Below are positions 4,279 to 20,275 of a DNA stretch of 33,383 bases, one piece after another. The DNA lies in assembly GCA_037379885.1 (NCBI GenBank), contig JARRJC010000033.1, positions 1-33,383 of the forward strand, given 5' to 3'. Position 1 is the first letter of the stretch. Every line of letters starts with the position of its first letter. A program made the position numbers and the translations under genes. Below the pieces are notes generated by a model. It did not search any database. It saw only the letters and a program-made list of their open reading frames with translations, and was not told the origin of the DNA. Origin of the DNA: Limibacillus sp. GTDB lineage: Bacteria; Pseudomonadota; Alphaproteobacteria; Kiloniellales; CECT-8803.

Positions 4279-5640
4279 ATGGTTCGTCTAAGCTTCCTTG
4301 GGGCGGCAGGCACCGTCACCGGCTCGAAGTATCTGCTGGAGGCTGCGGGGCGGCGACTGCTGATCGATTGCGGCCTCTTTCAAGGATACAAGAACCTCCG
4401 CCTCAAGAACTGGCGGCCGCTGCCGGTGGACCCAGCCGAGATCGATGCGGTGGTTCTCACGCATGCGCATATCGACCACAGCGGATATCTGCCGCTTTTG
4501 ATTCGGAATGGCTTTTCGGGTCCCGTCTATAGCAGCGAGGGCACCCGCGATCTCTGCGAGATCCTGCTGCCCGACAGCGGATACCTTCAAGAGAAGGACG
4601 CGGAGTTCGCGAACCGCCATGGATTCAGCAAGCACCGCCCGGCTCTGCCGCTCTATGACGAAGCAGACGGCCGCGCCGCGCTAGAGAGCTTCACCCCCAT
4701 CCCCTTCGATAAAGAGTGGGAGCCGCTGCCCGGCATCACCGTCGTGCTAAGGCGGGCGGGCCATATCCTGGGGGCCGCTTGCCTGGAGATGCAGCTCGAC
4801 GGTCACCGTTTGGTGTTCTCGGGCGATCTGGGGCGGCCGAACGACCCGGTGATGCTGGCTCCTTGGCGGCCGTCCGGGGCGGATTACTTGGTTGTCGAGT
4901 CCACCTACGGCGACCGCCGGCACGACCCCGAGGACCCGGAAACGCTGCTGGCCACGGTCATCAAGGAAACTGCCGAAAGGGGAGGCAGCGTCTTGATACC
5001 GGCTTTTGCGGTCGGGCGCAGCCAGCTGATGCTCTTCCATCTCTGGAGGCTCTTGCGCGGGGGCGCCATACCCAACCTCCCCATCTATTTGGACAGCCCG
5101 ATGGCGATCAACGCCAGTGAGATCTTTCGCCGTCACGCCGACAGCCATCGCTTGAGCGAAGCTGAAGCCAAGGCCGTTTGCGATGTCGCGACCTATGTCC
5201 GGGAGGTTGAGGAGTCCAAAGCTCTCGGAAATCTGCGTGTGCCGGCCATCATCATTTCAGCAAGCGGAATGGCAACGGGCGGGCGGGTGCTCCATCACCT
5301 GAAGAGACTCGCCCCGGACCCCAGGAACGCCATCCTATTCACCGGCTTCCAGGCCGCGGGAACCCGCGGAGCGGCCATGCTGGCTGGGGCCGAGAGCATC
5401 AAGATTCACGGCGGCCACTATCCCGTGCGCGCCAAGGTTTCTTGCCTGGATATGCTTTCAGCCCATGCCGATGCGGACGAAATCCTGTCCTGGCTGAAGG
5501 CGATGGAACGCCCGCCCAGGACGACCTTCATCACCCACGGCGAACCGGAGGCGGCCGAAGCTCTGAGGCTCCGGATCGAAGAAGAACTCGGTTGGGACTG
5601 CGTGGTCCCAGAGTACCGGGATTCCCTGAAACTCGAATGA
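4279..5640 (+). CDS. MBL-fold beta-CASP RNase-like hydrolase (CPSF73/Ysh1 type)
   Basis: This 453-residue protein has the metallo-beta-lactamase motif HAHIDHSG, with H62, H64, D66 and H67 binding two zinc ions, and the downstream HILGAACLEM and SGDLGRPNDP metal motifs. A beta-CASP insert includes ESTYGDRRH, LIPAFAVGRSQ, DSPMA and ISASGMATGGRVLHHL. It ends in an RMMBL-type segment (SAHADADEI, FITHGEP). This order is typical of bacterial and archaeal CPSF73-like proteins that cut or trim RNA. In bacteria the true substrate is usually unknown. GGGAG lies about 12 bases before the ATG. It converges with the acyl-CoA synthetase gene across a 28-base gap in which no clear terminator is seen. Confidence 0.9.
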   Translation: MVRLSFLGAAGTVTGSKYLLEAAGRRLLIDCGLFQGYKNLRLKNWRPLPVDPAEIDAVVLTHAHIDHSGYLPLLIRNGFSGPVYSSEGTRDLCEILLPDSGYLQEKDAEFANRHGFSKHRPALPLYDEADGRAALESFTPIPFDKEWEPLPGITVVLRRAGHILGAACLEMQLDGHRLVFSGDLGRPNDPVMLAPWRPSGADYLVVESTYGDRRHDPEDPETLLATVIKETAERGGSVLIPAFAVGRSQLMLFHLWRLLRGGAIPNLPIYLDSPMAINASEIFRRHADSHRLSEAEAKAVCDVATYVREVEESKALGNLRVPAIIISASGMATGGRVLHHLKRLAPDPRNAILFTGFQAAGTRGAAMLAGAESIKIHGGHYPVRAKVSCLDMLSAHADADEILSWLKAMERPPRTTFITHGEPEAAEALRLRIEEELGWDCVVPEYRDSLKLE

Positions 5641-9764: not shown

Positions 9765-9951
9765 AGTTTCTACCCTCGTCTCGAGGCGGCCCGACCACCG
9801 GGCACGTCAACCTCACTGGGCGCACTGTGTAACGCTGCTCGCTAATATATGCGGTCTAAATGCGGCCCCTGCCGTGGTTCGTTCGTGCCAAAATCCGGGA
9901 TTGAAATAGGCCGTTCGGACCAAGCAGGCGAAAAAGCGGGTCCCGGGGGCC

Positions 9952-10434
9952 TCAGCGCAGGAGCAAGCGGGCCAAATCGGGCTGGGTGGATTTGACGGTT
10001 CGCGTGACGATGTAGGTCATGTAGCGGTCGATGCCCAGACCTTCGGACAGCAGGCTGTCCATCAGCGCCTGGAAGGTCTGCAGGTTCGAGGTGACGACGG
10101 TCAGGACGTAGTCCATTCCCCCGCCCGTTGCGATGCAGTTGGTCACTTCCTTCAAGTCGGCGATGCGCGCCTCGAAGCGTTCGAAATCGGTCTTGCGGTG
10201 ACTCTCCAGGGAGACGGTCACCACCACCTGGCTGACCTCGGCGATGCTGTCGAGAACGATGTCGGCGTGATAGCCGCGAATGATCCCCGCCTTCTTCAGC
10301 CTGTCGACCCGGATCCAGCAGGGCGTTGGCGACAGGTTGACCGCTTCGGCCAACTGCGACTTGCTGAGGCGGCCGTGTGTCTGAAGCGCAGTTAAAATGC
10401 GAACGTCCGTCGCGTCCAATACGTGCTGCTTCAT
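9952..10434 (-). CDS. Lrp/AsnC family transcriptional regulator
   Basis: The 160-residue protein has an N-terminal winged helix-turn-helix (about 5-60, including GRLSKSQLAEAVNLSPTPCWIRVDRL) and a C-terminal RAM/AsnC ligand domain (about 70-150, with TGGGMDYVLTVV). Members act as dimers or octamers and sense amino acids or other small molecules. The gene is on the same strand, 187 bases upstream of the DmdA-like gene, so it probably controls that unit. The AT-rich stretch 9841-9865 in the gap is the natural place for a promoter or operator, but I could not define boxes there. Confidence 0.93.
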   Translation of the reverse strand: MKQHVLDATDVRILTALQTHGRLSKSQLAEAVNLSPTPCWIRVDRLKKAGIIRGYHADIVLDSIAEVSQVVVTVSLESHRKTDFERFEARIADLKEVTNCIATGGGMDYVLTVVTSNLQTFQALMDSLLSEGLGIDRYMTYIVTRTVKSTQPDLARLLLR

Positions 10435-10513
10435 GGCTCTTCACCTCTTTCCAGGATCAAGACAATTGAGCAATTCAAGGGCTGAAAGCAAGGGCTTGCT
10501 TTTAGCCTACGCA

Positions 10514-10864
10514 TCAATTGGCAAGGTCCGCCGGGTGCAGAACCTGCGAGGGCAGATAACCCTGTTGCCCTTCGCAATCGCCGTCCAGGACTTTCACTTC
10601 AGCATAGCTATGAGGTCCGTGTCGGGCGGAGCGGAGGAAGCGAACGGGCGTCCGGTCGGCAACATCGCAGAGGCCCGCCCCGACATGGGGCGCCGAGAGC
10701 AGGGCGGCCGGGCTGTCCGGCTCGGAGGTCCGCACGATTCGCGTCTCCTCCTGCGCCGCCCCTGTGTCCGGATGCCAGAGGCAGCTCCAGGCAATCCCGC
10801 CCAGCAGCAAGGCTAGAGGCTTCCGGCCGAACGGCCAGGGCCTTTGAGCAGCCGAATGCTTCAT
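10514..10864 (-). CDS. secreted SH3b-like small protein at the end of the bufferin operon
   Basis: ATG 10864 is chosen over GTG 10876 because an AGGAGG lies about 12 bases before the ATG but touches the GTG. The 116-residue product has a basic N-terminus, a hydrophobic core (17-30) and a likely signal peptidase site near GAAQ (36-38). The mature part has two cysteines (C66, C97). Its pattern LCDVADRTPVRFLRS...EVKVLDGDCEGQQGYLPSQVL resembles a bacterial SH3 fold. The gene is 42 bases downstream of the DoxX gene in the same direction, so it is probably the last member of that operon. No specific function is recognised; periplasmic binding or copper-stress partner roles are only guesses. Confidence 0.6.
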   Translation of the reverse strand: MKHSAAQRPWPFGRKPLALLLGGIAWSCLWHPDTGAAQEETRIVRTSEPDSPAALLSAPHVGAGLCDVADRTPVRFLRSARHGPHSYAEVKVLDGDCEGQQGYLPSQVLHPADLAN

Positions 10865-10906
10865 GGTCTGGCGCACCCTCCTGACGCGTCCTCCGCTTCA
10901 AGCATC

Positions 10907-11473
10907 TTAAGGCACGGCTTCCAGCCGCCGCCACACCAGATGATCGACCGACAGCGTCCCCGCGCCGCGGATGACGAGGTAGGCGAGCAGGAAGACCCAG
11001 AGCGCGCGCTGGTCGAGGATGGCGGCATCGGGAAAGCGGTCGAACCAGCTCCCCACCGTCTCGGCGTCGGCGCCGTGGAAGGCGATGTCCACATAGCTCT
11101 GCACCAGCGTGAAGCCGATCATGCCCAGTGCCGCCAGCCGGGTGAAGGCGCCCGCCACGATCAGCAGCGGCAGGATGAACTCCGCATAGGTCCCGGCGGC
11201 GACGATCAGGCCGTAGGGGAAAAGAGGCACCTGGGACGCGTCGTACCCGTAGGCCTCGACAACGCTGGGCAGGATCTGGAAATAGGCGTTGTCGCCAATC
11301 GAGAAGAAGCCCGCGAGGCCGTCGCCCACCTTGGTCGATGCCGAGTTCAGGTAGTAGACCAGCAGAACCGCAGCGAAGACGAAGCGGGCGAGAAGACCCG
11401 TGAACCAGGGGTCCAGCCCGCGTTCCACTGCCCCGACGACGCGCCCGTATAGAGAGCTGAGAGTAGAGATCAT
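10907..11473 (-). CDS. DoxX family membrane protein of the bufferin operon
   Basis: The ATG at 11473 gives a 188-residue product with four predicted membrane helices. The segments include LLARFVFAAVLLVYYLNSA, FPYGLIVAAGTYAEFILPLL, LAALGMIGFTLVQSYVDIAF and LWVFLLAYLVIRGAGTLSVD, the usual DoxX arrangement. A longer frame upstream overlaps the preceding gene and is not needed. It begins 13 bases after the stop of the DUF2063 gene. DoxX proteins are frequent fourth members of DUF2282/DUF692/DUF2063 operons (HvfD/BufD position), perhaps for redox or membrane support of peptide maturation. That role is known only from association. Confidence 0.88.
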   Translation of the reverse strand: MISTLSSLYGRVVGAVERGLDPWFTGLLARFVFAAVLLVYYLNSASTKVGDGLAGFFSIGDNAYFQILPSVVEAYGYDASQVPLFPYGLIVAAGTYAEFILPLLIVAGAFTRLAALGMIGFTLVQSYVDIAFHGADAETVGSWFDRFPDAAILDQRALWVFLLAYLVIRGAGTLSVDHLVWRRLEAVP

Positions 11474-11486
11474 GGCTTTGGTATCC

Positions 11487-12272
11487 TTATGTGATTGAAC
11501 GGCCATCCGGGGCTGCGAGCCCGCAGACCGCGCCGATCTCGAAGATTCCTGAAAGGGCTGTCGAAAGGTCGAACTGTCCGTCTTGCTCCGCGGCTGTCTC
11601 CGCTGCCTCGTGAAGCGTCTCTCCCGCGGCCAGACGGCGGAGAAAGGCATGGTCGCCGACCTGCAAGACGCGCTGCTCGACCGAGAGCGCCGGGCGGAGC
11701 AGGACGATCTCCTCGCCCGCGTCCATCTTGACCTCCAACCCTTCGTCTCCGCCCTCGGTCGCCGCCCAAAGCGAGGCGACGGGGTAGCGCGACGACAGCA
11801 GGCGCAGGGAGGGGTGCAAGGAGAAGCGTAACGCCGCCAGGTCCTCCGCTGCGAGGCCCTGGAGCCGTTCGATGGGCAAGGAGGCGGCGTCGGGCGCGTT
11901 GGTCGCCTCGACCCGGGCCCATTCGAAGCGCGCGAGGTCGCCCAGGTAGGGAACGCTCCGGGCGGGCTCGAAGCCTTCCAGAAAATCGCCGAAGCCCGCG
12001 CCGAAAGTCAGCAGCACCGGCGAGCGCGGCGGCTCGACCTCAAGATAGAGCCGCCCGGCGGCTTCGAAGAACTCCGCACCGACGAAGCGAAGCACCGCCG
12101 GGTAAGTCTGCTTCAAAGCATCGATCAGGCTGACGATGCGATTGTTACGGTAGACGTTGAAGGCGCGGAGAGCGTCCTCGTCCCCGCCGCTCCGGATGCC
12201 GTCCGGCAGAGCCCGATCGGGGTCCTTGAGCGCGGCGGTGAAAGCCTTTTCCAACCGGGCGTGATCAGGCAT
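11487..12272 (-). CDS. bufC: BufC-type DUF2063 protein, MNIO partner
   Basis: The 261-residue product starts at ATG 12272, which overlaps the stop of the DUF692 gene by eight bases (ATGCCTGA) and indicates translational coupling. The N-terminal part (RLEKAFTAAL, AFNVYRNNRIVSLIDALKQTYPAVLRFVG, FFEAAGRLYL) is the DUF2063 putative DNA-binding-like domain. The C-terminal half resembles the second domain of MbnC/BufC proteins. In characterised MNIO systems this partner binds the precursor peptide and presents it to the iron enzyme. The gene lies exactly between bufB-like and doxX, as in bufferin and Hvf operons. Confidence 0.88.
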   Translation of the reverse strand: MPDHARLEKAFTAALKDPDRALPDGIRSGGDEDALRAFNVYRNNRIVSLIDALKQTYPAVLRFVGAEFFEAAGRLYLEVEPPRSPVLLTFGAGFGDFLEGFEPARSVPYLGDLARFEWARVEATNAPDAASLPIERLQGLAAEDLAALRFSLHPSLRLLSSRYPVASLWAATEGGDEGLEVKMDAGEEIVLLRPALSVEQRVLQVGDHAFLRRLAAGETLHEAAETAAEQDGQFDLSTALSGIFEIGAVCGLAAPDGRSIT

Positions 12273-13152
12273 GGAGGCTGGCTCCCTCGCGCTGGGCCTT
12301 CGCCTCTTCGGCGATCCTGTCGGCCTTCTGCGCTTCGGCCAGCAGGACCGGCCAGTCGGGCAGGTCGTTGTCCCACTCGACCAGCGCGGGGGCCTCGTGC
12401 CCCTCAGCCCGCAAGGCGGCGAAGAGCGACCAGACGGCATTGCCCGCCGGGCGGTCGTGGGCATCGATAAGCAGCGGGCGTCCCGAGGGCAAGGTCTCGC
12501 TCGCGTGCCCGGCCAAGTGGATCTCGCCCACCAGAGGAAGCGGAAAGGCGGAGAGGTAATCCGCCGCCTCATAGCCCCTGTTCGTCGCGGAGACCACGAG
12601 GTTGTTCAGATCGAGCAGGAGGCCGCAGCCGCTGCGCTTGGCCAGGGCGCGCAGGAACGCGGTTTCCTCAAGGGCGCTGTCCTCGAAACCGATGTAAAGG
12701 GAGGGGTTCTCGATCAGGACCTGGCGGCCCAAGACATCCTGGAACTGCTGAATGCGCCCGGCCACCCGGTCCAGGGTCTCCTCTGTATAGGGCAGGGGCA
12801 GCAGGTCGTTGAAGAACTCGCCGCCGTGACGGGTCCAGGCGAGATGCTCGCTTACCATCCAGGGCTGATAGCGCTCGCAGAGCGCCTTGAAGCGCAGCAT
12901 GTGTTCGCGGTCCAGCGGGTCGGTCCCGCCCAGGGAGAGGCCGACCCCGTGGAGGGAGAGGGGGTAGTCCCGGCGGATCGCCTCAAGCTGCGCGTGAGGC
13001 GGGCCGCCCGCGCCCATGTAGTTCTCGGCGTGCACCTCGAACCAGCCGGCGGCTGGCGTCTCCGAGCGGATCGCCTGGAAGTGCTCCGCCTTGAAGCTGA
13101 CGCCGGTTTTCTTGGGCGGCGTCCCTTGGACGGTATGAGCGCTGGAGACCAT
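12265..13152 (-). CDS. bufB: BufB-type DUF692 multinuclear non-heme iron oxidative enzyme (MNIO)
   Basis: This 295-residue TIM-barrel protein of family DUF692 has possible metal ligands at H68 (SLHGVGLSLGG), H103 (SEHLAW), E148 (LIENPS), D181 (LLLDLNN), E210, H212 and H216 (EIHLAGH) and D230/H232 (IDAHD). The group is related to MbnB and uses two or three iron ions and oxygen to convert cysteines of a partner peptide into heterocycles. In bufferins these are thiooxazoles. The start at 13152 puts GVSFKAEHF near the N-terminus as in relatives. The precursor gene is 116 bases upstream and the DUF2063 partner overlaps its 3' end. The precursor's two central cysteines are the expected substrate (inference). 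Confidence 0.93.
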   Translation of the reverse strand: MVSSAHTVQGTPPKKTGVSFKAEHFQAIRSETPAAGWFEVHAENYMGAGGPPHAQLEAIRRDYPLSLHGVGLSLGGTDPLDREHMLRFKALCERYQPWMVSEHLAWTRHGGEFFNDLLPLPYTEETLDRVAGRIQQFQDVLGRQVLIENPSLYIGFEDSALEETAFLRALAKRSGCGLLLDLNNLVVSATNRGYEAADYLSAFPLPLVGEIHLAGHASETLPSGRPLLIDAHDRPAGNAVWSLFAALRAEGHEAPALVEWDNDLPDWPVLLAEAQKADRIAEEAKAQREGASLHA

Positions 13153-13179
13153 CTTGGGGGATTCCCGTTAAGGCGAGGA

Positions 13180-13207
13180 GCCGGCCGCACCTGGACGGTG
13201 GGCCGGC
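13180..13207 (-). other. hairpin between bufA1 and bufB
   Basis: GCCGGCC (13180-13186) pairs with GGCCGGC (13201-13207) across a 14-base loop in the 116-base gap between the precursor and the enzyme gene. No U-run follows on the transcribed strand, so it is not a classical terminator. Such a structure could protect the 3' end of the precursor mRNA or reduce read-through into bufB. That would suit a peptide needed in excess over its enzyme (inference). Confidence 0.45.
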
Positions 13208-13268
13208 CCTTTGCCATGCCTTGCCGCCAAGAGCGGCCAGGCGTTCAGCCCTGCCTTCGGCTAAGCGT

Positions 13269-13601
13269 TCAGCCTTGCGGCAGATCGCGGTCGAGGGCTT
13301 CCAGGGAACCCACGCGGTCGCCCGGCAGCTCGTACTTGGCCTCGGACTCCTCGACGCCGTACTTGGCGCACTCGCCGGCGGGAACCAGCGTCCAGGCGTT
13401 GCCCTGGTAATCGACCTTGGAGGTGCCGGCGCAGGTGGTGCCGGGTCCGGCGGCGCAGTCGTTCTGCCCCGCCAGGGAGATGCCGAAGCACTTCTCCTTG
13501 GCCTGGGCCGAGGCGGTCTTGGCGCCCGCCGTGGCTGAAACGGCCAGGGCGACGGCGCCCGCGATCATGGCGGCGTTTATCTTCTTGCTGCGGTGTTCCA
13601 T
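13269..13601 (-). CDS. bufA1: BufA1-type bufferin precursor (DUF2282)
   Basis: The 110-residue product has a signal peptide (basic start, hydrophobic 10-25, probable cleavage after ASAQA at 34) and four cysteines: C38 (EKCFG), C49 (QNDCAAG), C57 ([16 protein letters not shown]) and C78 (GECAKYG). This spacing and the [15 protein letters not shown] block are the DUF2282 signature of bufferin 1 precursors. In those, two cysteines become thiooxazoles, the others form a disulfide, and the exported product chelates copper. An acidic C-terminal tail (79-110) follows the core. RBS: AGGAAGGACCTGA on the minus strand just before ATG 13601. It is 48 bases after the YHS-domain gene and 116 before bufB. 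Confidence 0.92.
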
Positions 13602-13649
13602 AGGTTCAGGTCCTTCCTTTGGAGTGGTTGAGGGTCAAGCCGAGCGAGA

Positions 13650-14189
13650 TCAGTTATCGAGCGGTGCGGAGGTGGAATAGGTGCCGTCGTTGTCGGCGAT
13701 CGCCTTCCAGCTCTTGGACGAGGCCTCCTTGGAGCCGAGCGAGGTCCAGTTCGCCTCCGACTTGGTGAGGTTGCCGGGGATGTCGGACTCCCAGAAGCCC
13801 ACGACCGTCGGCGTGATGTTCAGGTAGAGCTTGCCGTCGCGGATCCGCCAGAGGTTCGGATTGCCGGGAACCTTGCCGCCTTGGGCGATGCCATAGGCGC
13901 AGTGGCCGTCATAGGCCGGCGCATACTTCTCGGGATCGGCCAGGAACTTGTCCCGGTTCGCTTCGCTGGAAAAGGCCCAGGTGGCGCCGTTGTATTCAGC
14001 CGTGATGCCGGTCTTGCCGGGAATGGCTTCGGGCTGCTTGGTGCCGACCGGAGACTGTTCCAGATCGAAATAGGCGACGACATCGTAGCCACCGGCGGCA
14101 TAGCCGGACTGGTCGATGTACTGCTCGCCCGCCGCAGCGCTCCCGATCATCATCAGGGAGAAAGCAGAAGCTAGAATGTACTTACGCAT
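13650..14189 (-). CDS. secreted YHS-domain protein heading the bufferin operon
   Basis: ATG 14189 is chosen because MRKYILASAFSLMMIGSAAA is then a clean signal peptide with cleavage near residue 20. The 179-residue product has the YHS-like pattern GYDVVAYF (34-41), YNGATWAFSSEANRDKFLADP (66-86) and YAPAYDGHCAYGIA (89-102), with one cysteine, C97. A C-terminal part (110-179) includes a strand GKLYLNITP and no recognised domain. YHS domains bind metal in copper ATPases and related proteins. Many periplasmic YHS-like proteins of this type have unknown roles. It is 48 bases upstream of bufA1 on the same strand, so a periplasmic copper function with the bufferin is plausible. Confidence 0.87.
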   Translation of the reverse strand: MRKYILASAFSLMMIGSAAAGEQYIDQSGYAAGGYDVVAYFDLEQSPVGTKQPEAIPGKTGITAEYNGATWAFSSEANRDKFLADPEKYAPAYDGHCAYGIAQGGKVPGNPNLWRIRDGKLYLNITPTVVGFWESDIPGNLTKSEANWTSLGSKEASSKSWKAIADNDGTYSTSAPLDN

Positions 14190-14461
14190 GTTTGGACGCC
14201 TTTGCTCCGCGTTAAGAGGGGTGACAGCGTCAAACCGCTGCACGAAAGCCGCGCCACTCCGGCGCGCCCCTCTGATATCGCCGCAGAACGCGGCGGGCTC
14301 AAATCACGCCGGCACAAAGAATCGTGACCGGGTCTTCCAGCGCCGGGATTCTTGGCGGCTGAAAGTGGCCAGGACGCGCTTGTTCTGATCGCGCCGGGGG
14401 CTTACATAACGGTGGAAGCGATGCTCTCCCTCTCCCCCGGTAAGATGCGAGCAGTTGCGGC
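14190..14461. promoter_or_regulatory. divergent intergenic region between YHS/bufferin operon and ExoD gene
   Basis: These 272 bases separate two divergently transcribed units, so promoters for both must lie here. I looked for an ECF-type element (GTAAC and CGAA/CGTC boxes), because related operons in Caulobacter are under SigF control. I found no convincing pair. No small gene is evident. Confidence 0.4.
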
Positions 14462-15172
14462 ATGACCGCCGACGATCAGAAGCCCCCGGAGCGCAAGAAG
14501 CGCCGAAAGATGTCCCGCTCCATCCTGTTGGCGGCGCGGCATGGCGGGGGACGGCGCTCAAAGGAAGGCAAGGGGCAAGACGGCAAGAAAGCCGATCAAG
14601 CGCGCCCCGACAGAAGCGATGAGACCATCACCCTGGGGGAGATTCTCGAGGATCTGGGCGAGCGTTCCTTCGGCTGGTGCCTTTTCGTCTTCACGCTGAT
14701 CTCACTGCTGCCGCTGCCCATCGGCTCCAACATGCTGACCGCGCTGCCGGTCATCTGGGTGGCCGGGCAAATGGCGGCGGGCTACCGCCACATCCACCTG
14801 CCGCGCATCATGACCGACCGCGCCTTCAAGCGGCGTTCGGTCCGGGCGACGATCCACAGGTTCCGCTTCCTGCTGCGCCCGCTGGAGCGTATCGCCCACC
14901 CGCGCAGGCCCGAGTTCTTCACGCCCTCGCGCGAACGCCTGATCGGGATTGCCTTGCTGATCTTCTCGCTCGCGCTCTTCCTGCCGATCCCCTTGAGCGG
15001 CTACGGCCCCGCGATCGCGATCTTCATCTCCTCCCTGGGGTTGGTGGAGCGCGATGGGGTGGTGCTCATGATCGGCCTCGCCGTGGGCGTGCTGGCCGTG
15101 GTCATCACCATCGTCATGGCGCTTCTGATTCTCTTCGGAGTCCACAGCCTGGGCGCGCCCGCGCCGGTCTAG
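14462..15172 (+). CDS. exoD: ExoD-family membrane protein
   Basis: The 236-residue product has a long basic, hydrophilic N-terminus (1-50), then the ExoD pattern TLGEILEDLGERSFGWCLFVFTLISLLPLPIGSN (about 57-90) and RHIHLPRIM. A paired hydrophobic region (about 155-230) contains LFLPIPLSGYGPAIAIFISSLGLVERDGVVLMIGL. ExoD was described in Rhizobium as affecting exopolysaccharide production; its biochemical role is not established. The family is typically about 200 residues, so the extra N-terminus is longer than usual, and an internal ATG at 14510 is an alternative start. It converges with the next minus-strand gene, with 26 bases between stops. Confidence 0.85.
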   Translation: MTADDQKPPERKKRRKMSRSILLAARHGGGRRSKEGKGQDGKKADQARPDRSDETITLGEILEDLGERSFGWCLFVFTLISLLPLPIGSNMLTALPVIWVAGQMAAGYRHIHLPRIMTDRAFKRRSVRATIHRFRFLLRPLERIAHPRRPEFFTPSRERLIGIALLIFSLALFLPIPLSGYGPAIAIFISSLGLVERDGVVLMIGLAVGVLAVVITIVMALLILFGVHSLGAPAPV

Positions 15173-18202: not shown

Positions 18203-18616
18203 ATGTTCAAGAACATCATGGTCCCGGTGGATTTGACCCACCTGGAGCATCTGGAACGTGCGTTATCTGTGGCAGCGGATCTGGCAAAACATTATGCAGC
18301 CGATCTCTACTGCGTGGGCGTAACGACCAGCATGCCGGGCCCGGTCGCCCATAATCCTTCAGAATACGCTGAAAAACTTGCCGCCTTCGCAAAGCAGGAA
18401 AGCGAGAAGCAGGGTATTGAGATCAAGGCCCAGGCCTACAGCAGCCACGACCCTGCGGTGGACCTGGACGATACCCTTATGAAGGCGGCCGGCGAACTGG
18501 GTATCGACCTCGCGGTCATGGGATCTCACCAGCCCGGCCTTCCAGAGCACATCTTCGCATCGAACGCGGGTTACCTCGCCTCACACGCCGCAATCTCCGT
18601 CTTGGTTGTGCGCTGA
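18203..18616 (+). CDS. universal stress protein (UspA family)
   Basis: The 137-residue single Usp domain begins with FKNIMVPVDLTHLEHLERAL and ends with the nucleotide-loop region VMGSHQPGLPEHIFASNAGYLASHAAISVLVVR. The ATP-binding pattern G-2X-G-9X-G(S/T) is slightly altered because Ala-Ser stands where Gly-Ser is usual. GGGGAAGG precedes the ATG. It is directly upstream of a BCCT transporter gene (45 bases). This mirrors other osmolyte transport units in which a Usp protein (for example TeaD with the ectoine TRAP transporter) modulates uptake, so an ATP-linked regulator of the transporter is a fair inference. Confidence 0.93.
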   Translation: MFKNIMVPVDLTHLEHLERALSVAADLAKHYAADLYCVGVTTSMPGPVAHNPSEYAEKLAAFAKQESEKQGIEIKAQAYSSHDPAVDLDDTLMKAAGELGIDLAVMGSHQPGLPEHIFASNAGYLASHAAISVLVVR

Positions 18617-18661
18617 GACTACCGGTAACGAAAAGCCTGAATAGCTGCAGGAGATACTCTC

Positions 18662-20275
18662 ATGAGTGATCAATCGGATCTGACCCCGGATGGGGCAGCC
18701 AATATGATCGACACCGACTACGAGATCGGTCAGGACAACATCACGACAAGTGTCGGGCCTTTCGGCCTCGACATCCACAACCCCGTCTTCTTGATCTCCG
18801 GTCTGGTGATCGTCGCCTTCGTCGTTTTGACGCTGGCGTTCCAGAACGATGTGGAACCGTTGTTCAATTCCATGCGCAGTTGGACGACCTCGACCCTGGA
18901 TTGGTTCTTCATCGGGTCGGCCAACATCTTTGTGCTCCTCTGCCTCTTCCTGATTGTCTCGCCGCTCGGCAAGGTACGGTTGGGCGGTAAGGAAGCAACG
19001 CCGGACTACTCTTATCCCGGATGGTTTGCCATGCTATTCGCGGCGGGCATGGGCATCGGCCTCATGTTCTTTGGCGTTTCGGAACCTATTTCACACTTCA
19101 CCTCCTCCTTCTCCGAGGGGGCGGGCTCGCCAGACAGCTGGGCTCCACTCAGCGGTGCGGCCGGCGATGCCGATGCGGCCCGCCGGCTCGGCATGGCGGC
19201 GACGATCTTCCACTGGGGTCTGCACCCTTGGGCGATCTACGCCATCGTGGCGCTGTCTCTCGCGCTCTTCAGCTACAACAAGGGCCTGCCGCTGACCATG
19301 CGTTCGGTTCTCTACCCGGTGTTCGGCGAGAAGGTTTGGGGCTGGCCGGGGCACATCATCGACACCCTCGCGGTCTTCGCCACGCTGTTCGGTCTCGCGA
19401 CCTCGCTAGGCTACGGCGCGGAGCAGGCCAACGCGGGTTTGGAGTTTCTCTTTGGGTTTCCGGTCTCTGACGGCTCCAAGGTGTTCCTGATCGCCGCCAT
19501 CACCGCGGTGGCCCTTCTCTCCGTGGTGGCGGGAATGGACGCCGGGGTGAAGCGCCTGTCGGAAATCAACATGGTTTTGGCCTTCCTGCTTCTGGGTTTC
19601 GTCGTGGCCGTGGGGCCGACCATCGCGATTGTGAGCGGGTTCTTCGAGAACCTGTTGGCTTACGGCGAGTACCTATTGCCGCTCTCCAATCCGGTAGGCC
19701 GTTCCGACGCCAACTTCAGTCAGGGCTGGACCTCCTTCTACTGGGCCTGGTGGATTTCCTGGTCACCCTTCGTGGGCATGTTCATCGCCCGTGTCAGCAG
19801 GGGCCGCTCTGTGCGTGAGTTCATCATCTGCGTGCTCTTGATCCCCTCGCTCGTCTGTGTGCTCTGGATGACCGCTTTCGGCGGCACTGCCATCACTCAG
19901 ATCGTCCAGGACGGGTATCAGGGCGTGGCCGACGCCGCGCTTGAGCTGAAGCTCTTCGTGATGCTGGAGCAGCTGCCCCTGGCCATGGTGACCTCGTTCA
20001 TCGGCATCGTGCTGGTGATCGTGTTCTTCGTCACCTCCTCGGACTCCGGTTCGCTGGTGATCGACACCATTACCGCCGGCGGCAAGGTCGATGCGCCTCT
20101 GCCGCAGCGGGTCTTCTGGTGCGTGTTCGAAGGGTTGGTGGCCATCGCCCTGCTGCTGGGCGGGGGTCTCGGCGCCTTGCAAGCCATGGCGGTGACAACG
20201 GGCCTGCCCTTCACTATCGTGCTCTTGCTGGGCTGCTACGCCATCATCAAGGGCCTGGCGAGCGAGCCGCGCTGA
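18662..20275 (+). CDS. BCCT family betaine/choline/carnitine-type transporter
   Basis: This 537-residue inner-membrane protein has about 12 helices. The sequence GMGIGLMFFGVSEP (from about residue 129) is the TM3 motif of sodium-coupled members such as BetP. WWISWSPFVGMFIARVSRGR is the BCCT signature with the aromatic substrate box. VTSSDSGSLVIDTI is the TM9/10 conserved segment. Substrates of the family are quaternary ammonium or sulfonium compounds, including glycine betaine, choline, carnitine and DMSP. Which one applies here cannot be read. A short N-terminal extension without a long regulatory C-terminal tail argues against BetP-like osmosensing. An intrinsic terminator follows 32 bases after the stop. 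Confidence 0.95.
   Translation: MSDQSDLTPDGAANMIDTDYEIGQDNITTSVGPFGLDIHNPVFLISGLVIVAFVVLTLAFQNDVEPLFNSMRSWTTSTLDWFFIGSANIFVLLCLFLIVSPLGKVRLGGKEATPDYSYPGWFAMLFAAGMGIGLMFFGVSEPISHFTSSFSEGAGSPDSWAPLSGAAGDADAARRLGMAATIFHWGLHPWAIYAIVALSLALFSYNKGLPLTMRSVLYPVFGEKVWGWPGHIIDTLAVFATLFGLATSLGYGAEQANAGLEFLFGFPVSDGSKVFLIAAITAVALLSVVAGMDAGVKRLSEINMVLAFLLLGFVVAVGPTIAIVSGFFENLLAYGEYLLPLSNPVGRSDANFSQGWTSFYWAWWISWSPFVGMFIARVSRGRSVREFIICVLLIPSLVCVLWMTAFGGTAITQIVQDGYQGVADAALELKLFVMLEQLPLAMVTSFIGIVLVIVFFVTSSDSGSLVIDTITAGGKVDAPLPQRVFWCVFEGLVAIALLLGGGLGALQAMAVTTGLPFTIVLLLGCYAIIKGLASEPR

Follow-up and report, generated by a model that had tools for sequence, protein, structure and literature searches.

A bufferin-1 operon headed by a secreted YHS-domain gene in Limibacillus sp., with a promoter element probably shared by bufferin operons and YHS genes

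This report concerns an operon of the alphaproteobacterium Limibacillus sp. in which a gene for a secreted YHS-domain protein precedes the genes for a bufferin-type copper peptide. The stretch analysed, hereafter the window, comprises positions 1 to 33,383 (33,383 nucleotides [nt]) of contig JARRJC010000033.1 (GenBank assembly GCA_037379885.1). Six reading frames follow one another on its minus strand from 14189 to 10514: the YHS gene at the operon head (13650..14189; 179 amino acids); bufA, encoding a bufferin-1 (DUF2282) precursor (13269..13601; 110 amino acids); bufB, encoding the MNIO bufferin maturase (12265..13152; 295 amino acids); bufC, encoding a DUF2063 partner protein (11487..12272; 261 amino acids); doxX, encoding a DoxX-family membrane protein (10907..11473; 188 amino acids); and a small orphan tail frame that is a doubtful gene (10514..10864). 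The YHS gene and bufA are separated by 48 nt, bufA and the MNIO gene by 116 nt, bufC and doxX by 13 nt, and doxX and the tail frame by 42 nt; the start of bufC overlaps bufB by 8 nt. A CenR-box-like site, TCACGATTCTTTGTG, lies on the same strand at 14313..14327, 138 nt upstream of the YHS start codon. Scans of positions 9800-14600 for sigma-70 promoters (1 match against a shuffle mean of 0.4) and terminators (3 against 3.6) found nothing clearly above shuffles.

By gene content, bufA-bufB-bufC-doxX is a genuine bufferin-1 operon. All four products exceed their Pfam cut-offs (e.g. PF10048 for BufA, E=2e-23; PF09836 for BufC, 5e-20; PF07681 for DoxX, at 23.9 bits barely over its cut-off of 23.6), and the MNIO also exceeds the NCBI bufferin-maturase cut-off (NF050167 BufB, 362 bits against 310). 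The N-terminus of BufA is signal-like when judged by eye, and its four cysteines (Cys38, Cys49, Cys57, and Cys78) are all among the 11 columns conserved to at least 93 per cent in 155 BufA rows. BufB agrees with 38 of 38 columns conserved to that degree in 184 BufB rows, has a structure match in PDB 3BWW (E=3e-39), and is the one MNIO match in the source genome (3.1 Mb, 128 contigs). Exactly the same gene order is found at 68 of the 147 bufB places surveyed as described below, with variants at others, and is therefore no accident. An earlier note on this DNA, made from the sequence alone, had recognized a DUF2282 precursor with four cysteines and a signal peptide, a DUF692 MNIO enzyme, and adjoining DUF2063 and DoxX genes on one strand, in the known bufferin layout; these identifications are borne out, the signal peptide by eye only.

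In this family, BufB with BufC converts the two central BufA cysteines (here Cys49 and Cys57) to thiooxazoles, the bufferin is exported by Sec and binds excess periplasmic copper, and DoxX resides in the membrane. Passages of PMC12452194 and PMC13097082 describe thiooxazole formation on BufA by BufB/BufC and copper binding by BufA after export; in the former, the central two cysteines are modified and the outer two form a disulphide, and the latter proposes the class name captophorins. The window operon resembles the bufferin-1 (DUF2282) clusters presented in those passages of PMC12452194 in its four cysteines and in the order of precursor, MNIO, DUF2063 partner, and DoxX, but adds the YHS gene at the head.

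This head gene is, as judged by sequence comparison, a genuine and recurrent extension of the bufferin operon. Among 385 genomes of the class, 149 have bufB matches and 117 have YHS matches; 140 stretches around listed bufB matches, together with the window, gave 141 loci with 147 bufB places, while at least five listed bufB rows (G076, G316, G293, G233, and one of G349), and further unlisted ones, lie outside the fetched loci. YHS genes were considered up to a limit of 5.5 kb, so that L084 and L136, where the gene lies beyond it, were counted as unlinked. YHS-bufA-bufB-bufC-doxX is collinear at 13 of the 147 places, in seven families, and the YHS gene is nearby on the opposite strand at two; among the 15 places with a YHS gene within the limit, 13 thus have it directly upstream of bufA and on the same strand. 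From the YHS side, a scan of named genomes with an alignment of seven linked YHS proteins returned 426 relatives, and among the best 80 of these, 32 are collinear with bufA-bufB-bufC (30 with doxX and two without doxX in the stretch) and two have bufferin genes nearby on the other strand. Both searches together yielded 45 collinear loci, or 42 distinct ones after removal of three duplicates (L211, L247, and L248, the same contigs as L064, L184, and L202). They include Pelagibius, Oceanibacterium, Denitrobaculum, Geminicoccaceae, and Tepidamorphaceae, together with bins of Granulosicoccaceae, a family of Gammaproteobacteria. Both starts could be set by script in 18 of the 42, and the gap between YHS gene and bufA is under 10 nt in three of these. 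A profile of the type-A YHS proteins has 11 strong matches in the 385 class genomes (at least 248 bits; 13 at E<=1e-45), seven collinear and four not, and three of the latter four genomes have bufB elsewhere. At the genome level, YHS and bufB matches co-occur (68 genomes with both, 81 with bufB only, 49 with YHS only, 187 with neither; p=3e-7), which was not used as proof because genome size and kinship are confounders. The earlier note had envisaged a module extended at both ends, recognizable by recurring neighbours: its head stands, since YHS genes recur beside DUF2282/MNIO genes, whereas its tail, treated at the end of this text, does not.

A literature search that covered few subscription journals found no paper pairing ‘MNIO’ or ‘DUF2282’ with ‘YHS domain’, and ‘YHS’ was not found in the main texts of PMC12452194 and PMC13097082, supplements being outside the search. 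According to its text as far as consulted, the 2025 landscape (PMC12452194) admitted unrelated genes only if within 10 bp of a known gene; the YHS gene may have been missed there because a 48-nt gap would fail that rule.

Some loci depart from these arrangements. L290 (G107) has YHS-bufA-doxX without MNIO or DUF2063 genes between, with MNIO matches elsewhere in the genome, and at L242 the MNIO of a bufferin operon next to a YHS gene is split into four reading-frame pieces, through sequencing error or decay. At 15 unlinked type-A YHS loci of Rhodobacteraceae type (among L252-L282), the next gene resembles, by eye, a secreted rhodanese, and L283, L284, and L286 (G201, G394, and G130) have two adjoining YHS matches.

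The window YHS protein belongs to the NCBI YHS (seleno)protein family NF041384 (123.1 bits against a cut-off of 70; PF04945, 3e-10). It has a signal-like N-terminus and a single cysteine, Cys97, which lies in a His-Cys motif and which we take to be the selenocysteine (Sec)/Cys position of the family. Like that family, it is over the cut-off with one cysteine; it differs in falling in a His-Cys subclade with a C-terminal tail that is often found beside bufA. The cysteine is kept in 45 of 45 linked copies, three of them from duplicate contigs. A lysine nine residues past it was considered as a marker of linkage and rejected: present in 45 of 45 linked copies, it is not diagnostic because it also occurs in 65 of the 109 unlinked copies that have the motif. 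The structure model (predicted local distance difference test [pLDDT] 72) gave weak matches, mainly to the YHS segments of axonemal proteins and toluene monooxygenase, and deriving a function from the fold was dropped since such matches give none; that the protein handles metal is our inference. The model for 13650-14189 also shows two units of a beta-hairpin plus helices (residues 59-89 and 110-151), perhaps an internal duplication.

In a tree of 123 YHS proteins, which has few columns and many open forks (18 near-identical rows and the three duplicate contigs were excluded, and the lower-scoring YHS rows are represented by 40 fetched regions out of about 80 listed), the window protein belongs to a starred set of 48 rows, of which 29 are linked, 15 are unlinked and of type A, two are low-scoring, and two are near. 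The rows of this set with a printed motif are of the His-Cys type. Other linked YHS proteins (L085, L092, L095, and L161/L182) are placed elsewhere, so that at least two YHS lineages are linked, and because the label ‘linked’ must change at least three times over the starred branches, linkage to bufferin genes would have been gained or lost repeatedly. A first tree, in which a single branch set off all 42 linked rows together with 19 unlinked and three near, was dropped because the addition of 44 lower-scoring YHS proteins (43 unlinked and L290) removed the split. In the bufB tree, linked copies cluster, yet not as a single clade (10 changes). The operon and YHS protein of L204, a record named Mesoflavibacter (Bacteroidota), group with alphaproteobacterial ones; the bin is probably misnamed.

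A second line of evidence comes from the promoters. De novo motif search by expectation-maximization on 28 YHS-linked upstream regions (the duplicates L211, L247, and L248 and 10 near-copies excluded) gave TcACgtTTT.GTGa...ga.GTGAtTTG (width 28), and the same search on an independent set of 101 upstream regions of bufA genes without YHS gave TCACg....cGTGAt; as nulls, both searches used single-base shuffles, for which fewer restarts were made than for the real sequences. We then counted TCAC-N6-GTGA in the 200 nt upstream of genes with script-chosen start codons, keeping only promoters with at least 30 mismatches in 100 nt to every other one in the set. When up to one mismatch is allowed, the element precedes 19 of 38 linked YHS genes, 51 of 101 YHS-less bufA genes, 27 of 38 unlinked type-A YHS genes, 16 of 27 high-scoring stand-alone YHS genes, and 12 of 44 lower-scoring YHS genes, compared with 42 of 542 promoters of other genes, 150 of 3000 random sequences, 8 of 156 internal bufC starts, and 4 of 42 bufA genes inside linked operons. 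Exact copies precede linked YHS genes (4/38), YHS-less bufA genes (19/101), stand-alone YHS genes (4/27), and lower-scoring YHS genes (4/44), against 10/542, 13/3000, 1/156, and 0/42 in the same four controls. The other-gene control is conservative because its 10 exact matches include divergent genes sharing the promoter of a YHS gene or bufA (for example L203, L272, and L135). Across spacings from 2 to 14, only 6 is clearly enriched (19 against 0-2 for YHS-less bufA; 4 against 0-2 for linked YHS). Stand-alone YHS genes thus have the element in common with bufferin operons, and the two probably belong to one regulon. By eye, YHS-bufferin promoters of three Granulosicoccaceae loci (L241, L243, and L254) have a GGAACCC-type sequence, like those of extracytoplasmic function sigma factors, and not the TCAC-GTGA repeat.

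The element matches the operator of the response regulator CenR of the envelope two-component system CenKR. As described in parts of PMC9561847, the one paper that a text search for the repeat returned, the Sinorhizobium meliloti srlA promoter contains a repeat bound by CenR in gel shifts, and a similar repeat is present in the chvI promoter; parts of PMC9275681 report 31 CenR sites under chromatin immunoprecipitation sequencing peaks in Rhodobacter sphaeroides and predict tolQ to be a conserved CenR target in other species. A matrix of these 31 published sites has the consensus TCACg....cGTGA, equal to the de novo element and common to the CenKR regulon and srlA as presented in those two papers; Table 1 of PMC9275681 differs in that nothing in it is named as a bufferin or YHS gene. 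At a threshold of 10.4 bits, which 28 of the 542 control promoters attain (the 95 per cent line; the 90 per cent line is 8.8), the matrix finds 36 of 101 YHS-less bufA promoters, 10 of 38 linked YHS, 10 of 27 stand-alone YHS, 9 of 38 unlinked type-A YHS, and 11 of 44 lower-scoring YHS promoters; internal bufC starts (4/156), bufA in linked operons (0/42), and random sequences (84/3000) served as further controls. Among 200 column-permuted matrices, the real fraction was reached by none for YHS-less bufA, stand-alone YHS, and unlinked type-A YHS and by one for linked YHS. The 36 YHS-less matches are spread over 25 of 59 families, where about five would be expected.

Within the window, TCACGATTCTTTGTG is the best CenR-matrix match in the 200 nt preceding the YHS gene and is two bases from the published RSP_1024 site; its score is moderate and falls within that of the published sites, which runs from 0.8 to 14.8 bits. 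The 28-mer at 14300-14327 that contains it is the best match in the whole window to a matrix of the sites of 12 relatives without the window's own (19.5 against 15.1 for the next), although the window was part of the run from which those 12 sites were chosen. The runner-up, at 4803-4830 on the plus strand, lies inside a reading frame (4279-5640) and is probably due to chance. Elsewhere in the source genome, TCACN5CGTGAT has six exact sites and its reversed control pattern none. One, TCACTCAGGCGTGAT, lies about 115 nt upstream of the second, stand-alone YHS gene (L033/L326; G000:C17, approximately 18229-18805). Others are found close to a DUF1223 gene and to two genes for AhpC/TSA peroxiredoxins (L323, L324, and L328; from open reading frame lists and Pfam), which suggests a redox-stress regulon, and the remaining ones near a helix-turn-helix gene and a gene for a small protein with a signal-like start.

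We consider it reasonably probable that the locus is a bufferin-1 operon led by a secreted YHS thiol/copper partner and read from one promoter under CenR-box-like envelope-stress control. A single promoter upstream of the YHS gene would serve the whole operon; by analogy with known bufferins, BufB/BufC would modify Cys49 and Cys57 of BufA, and the exported peptide would bind excess copper; and the YHS protein, in the same compartment, would act through its conserved Cys97 as the thiol/copper partner of the bufferin. The site, of the TCAC-N6-GTGA type, would tie the operon to the alphaproteobacterial envelope/oxidative-stress response, a tie that we infer from enrichment over many genomes and not from the source genome itself. 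More tentatively, and with doubt prevailing, CenK-CenR may directly control bufferin operons and secreted YHS (seleno)proteins throughout Alphaproteobacteria, YHS being a dedicated periplasmic bufferin partner. Little is known of the partner genes and control of bufferins, a large peptide family; the recurrent YHS protein would be a candidate for a periplasmic handling step, and the shared operator offers a concrete regulator hypothesis. If this is correct, copper-peptide production would be part of the envelope/oxidative-stress response, and the uncharacterized YHS (seleno)proteins would gain a first physiological context.

Several observations weigh against the proposal of a YHS-led operon under CenR-like control. 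Among the best 80 of the 426 YHS relatives, 46 type-A loci lack bufB in the stretch examined, and YHS therefore also works without a linked bufferin; of the 117 genomes in which YHS is matched, 49 lack a match to bufB. Exact TCAC-N6-GTGA occurs in none of the 38 unlinked type-A YHS promoters, and the window site, at 9.7 bits, is above the 90 per cent control line but below the 95 per cent line. The bufferin operons of Caulobacter, alike in their core genes, are under SigF-NrsF control and induced by chromium or copper, with a different promoter motif (GTAACC-N16-CGAA) and no YHS protein named in the main texts (PMC3511200 and PMC8224329, as far as consulted). In the stretch around tolQ of the source genome (where the upstream genes, named by eye, are ybgC and ruvB), coding-strand CenR-matrix matches of at least 6.5 bits lie only inside reading frames, and tolQ thus failed as a positive control. 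For this reason, we regard the operator shared by sequence upstream of YHS genes and bufferin operons as the finding and CenR as its regulator only as a hypothesis. Another OmpR-type regulator, such as ChvI or a copper-responsive one, is a possibility that we take seriously while doubting it: the tolQ result and the similar repeat in the chvI promoter (PMC9561847, in part) favour it, but the consensus equals that of the 31 published CenR sites and permuted matrices fail to reproduce the enrichment.

The role of the YHS protein can also be read differently. It might be an envelope/redox-stress gene standing beside bufA merely through a common promoter element, with no functional contact. The element upstream of stand-alone YHS genes (16/27 at up to one mismatch), including the exact TCACTCAGGCGTGAT in the source genome, is consistent with this; nevertheless, linkage in separate YHS lineages and the position immediately ahead of bufA, in the same orientation, at 13 of 15 places argue against it, and we think it rather unlikely. 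Decidedly improbable, in our judgement, is that the YHS protein is a second MNIO substrate whose single cysteine BufB/BufC modifies to give a modified protein rather than a peptide. It is secreted, occupies the place of a tandem precursor gene, and keeps its cysteine in every linked copy, and MNIOs may modify protein substrates (PMC12452194, in part); yet the cysteine is also present in 32 unlinked YHS proteins inspected, no bufferin-like core surrounds it, and Sec in some family members (NCBI family name; PMC9312934, in part) points to a generic role.

The tail frame (10864..10514), which the earlier note had read as a secreted SH3b-like protein, is not supported as such and was rejected as a conserved part of the module. 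It matches no family of Pfam or NCBIfam at E<=1, hence no SH3-type family, and its low-confidence single-sequence model (pLDDT 59) has no PDB fold match at E<=0.001. No relatives were found in 57 other genomes of the family and order, among named genomes (in a scan reaching close relatives only), or in the fetched bufferin/YHS loci, and nothing resembling it lies behind doxX in 42 other linked loci with doxX (three duplicates included). Its codon score (-0.04) is below that of all 51 true-frame segments (minimum 0.09) and is reached by 16 per cent of 255 wrong-frame segments. These results make it unlikely that the frame is a genuine gene of recent origin that adds a secreted SH3-like protein to the operon, a reading for which the 42-nt gap to doxX and a weak beta-strand prediction from the model would speak; with its signal-like N-terminus and an AGGAGG upstream, the frame may still be a gene.

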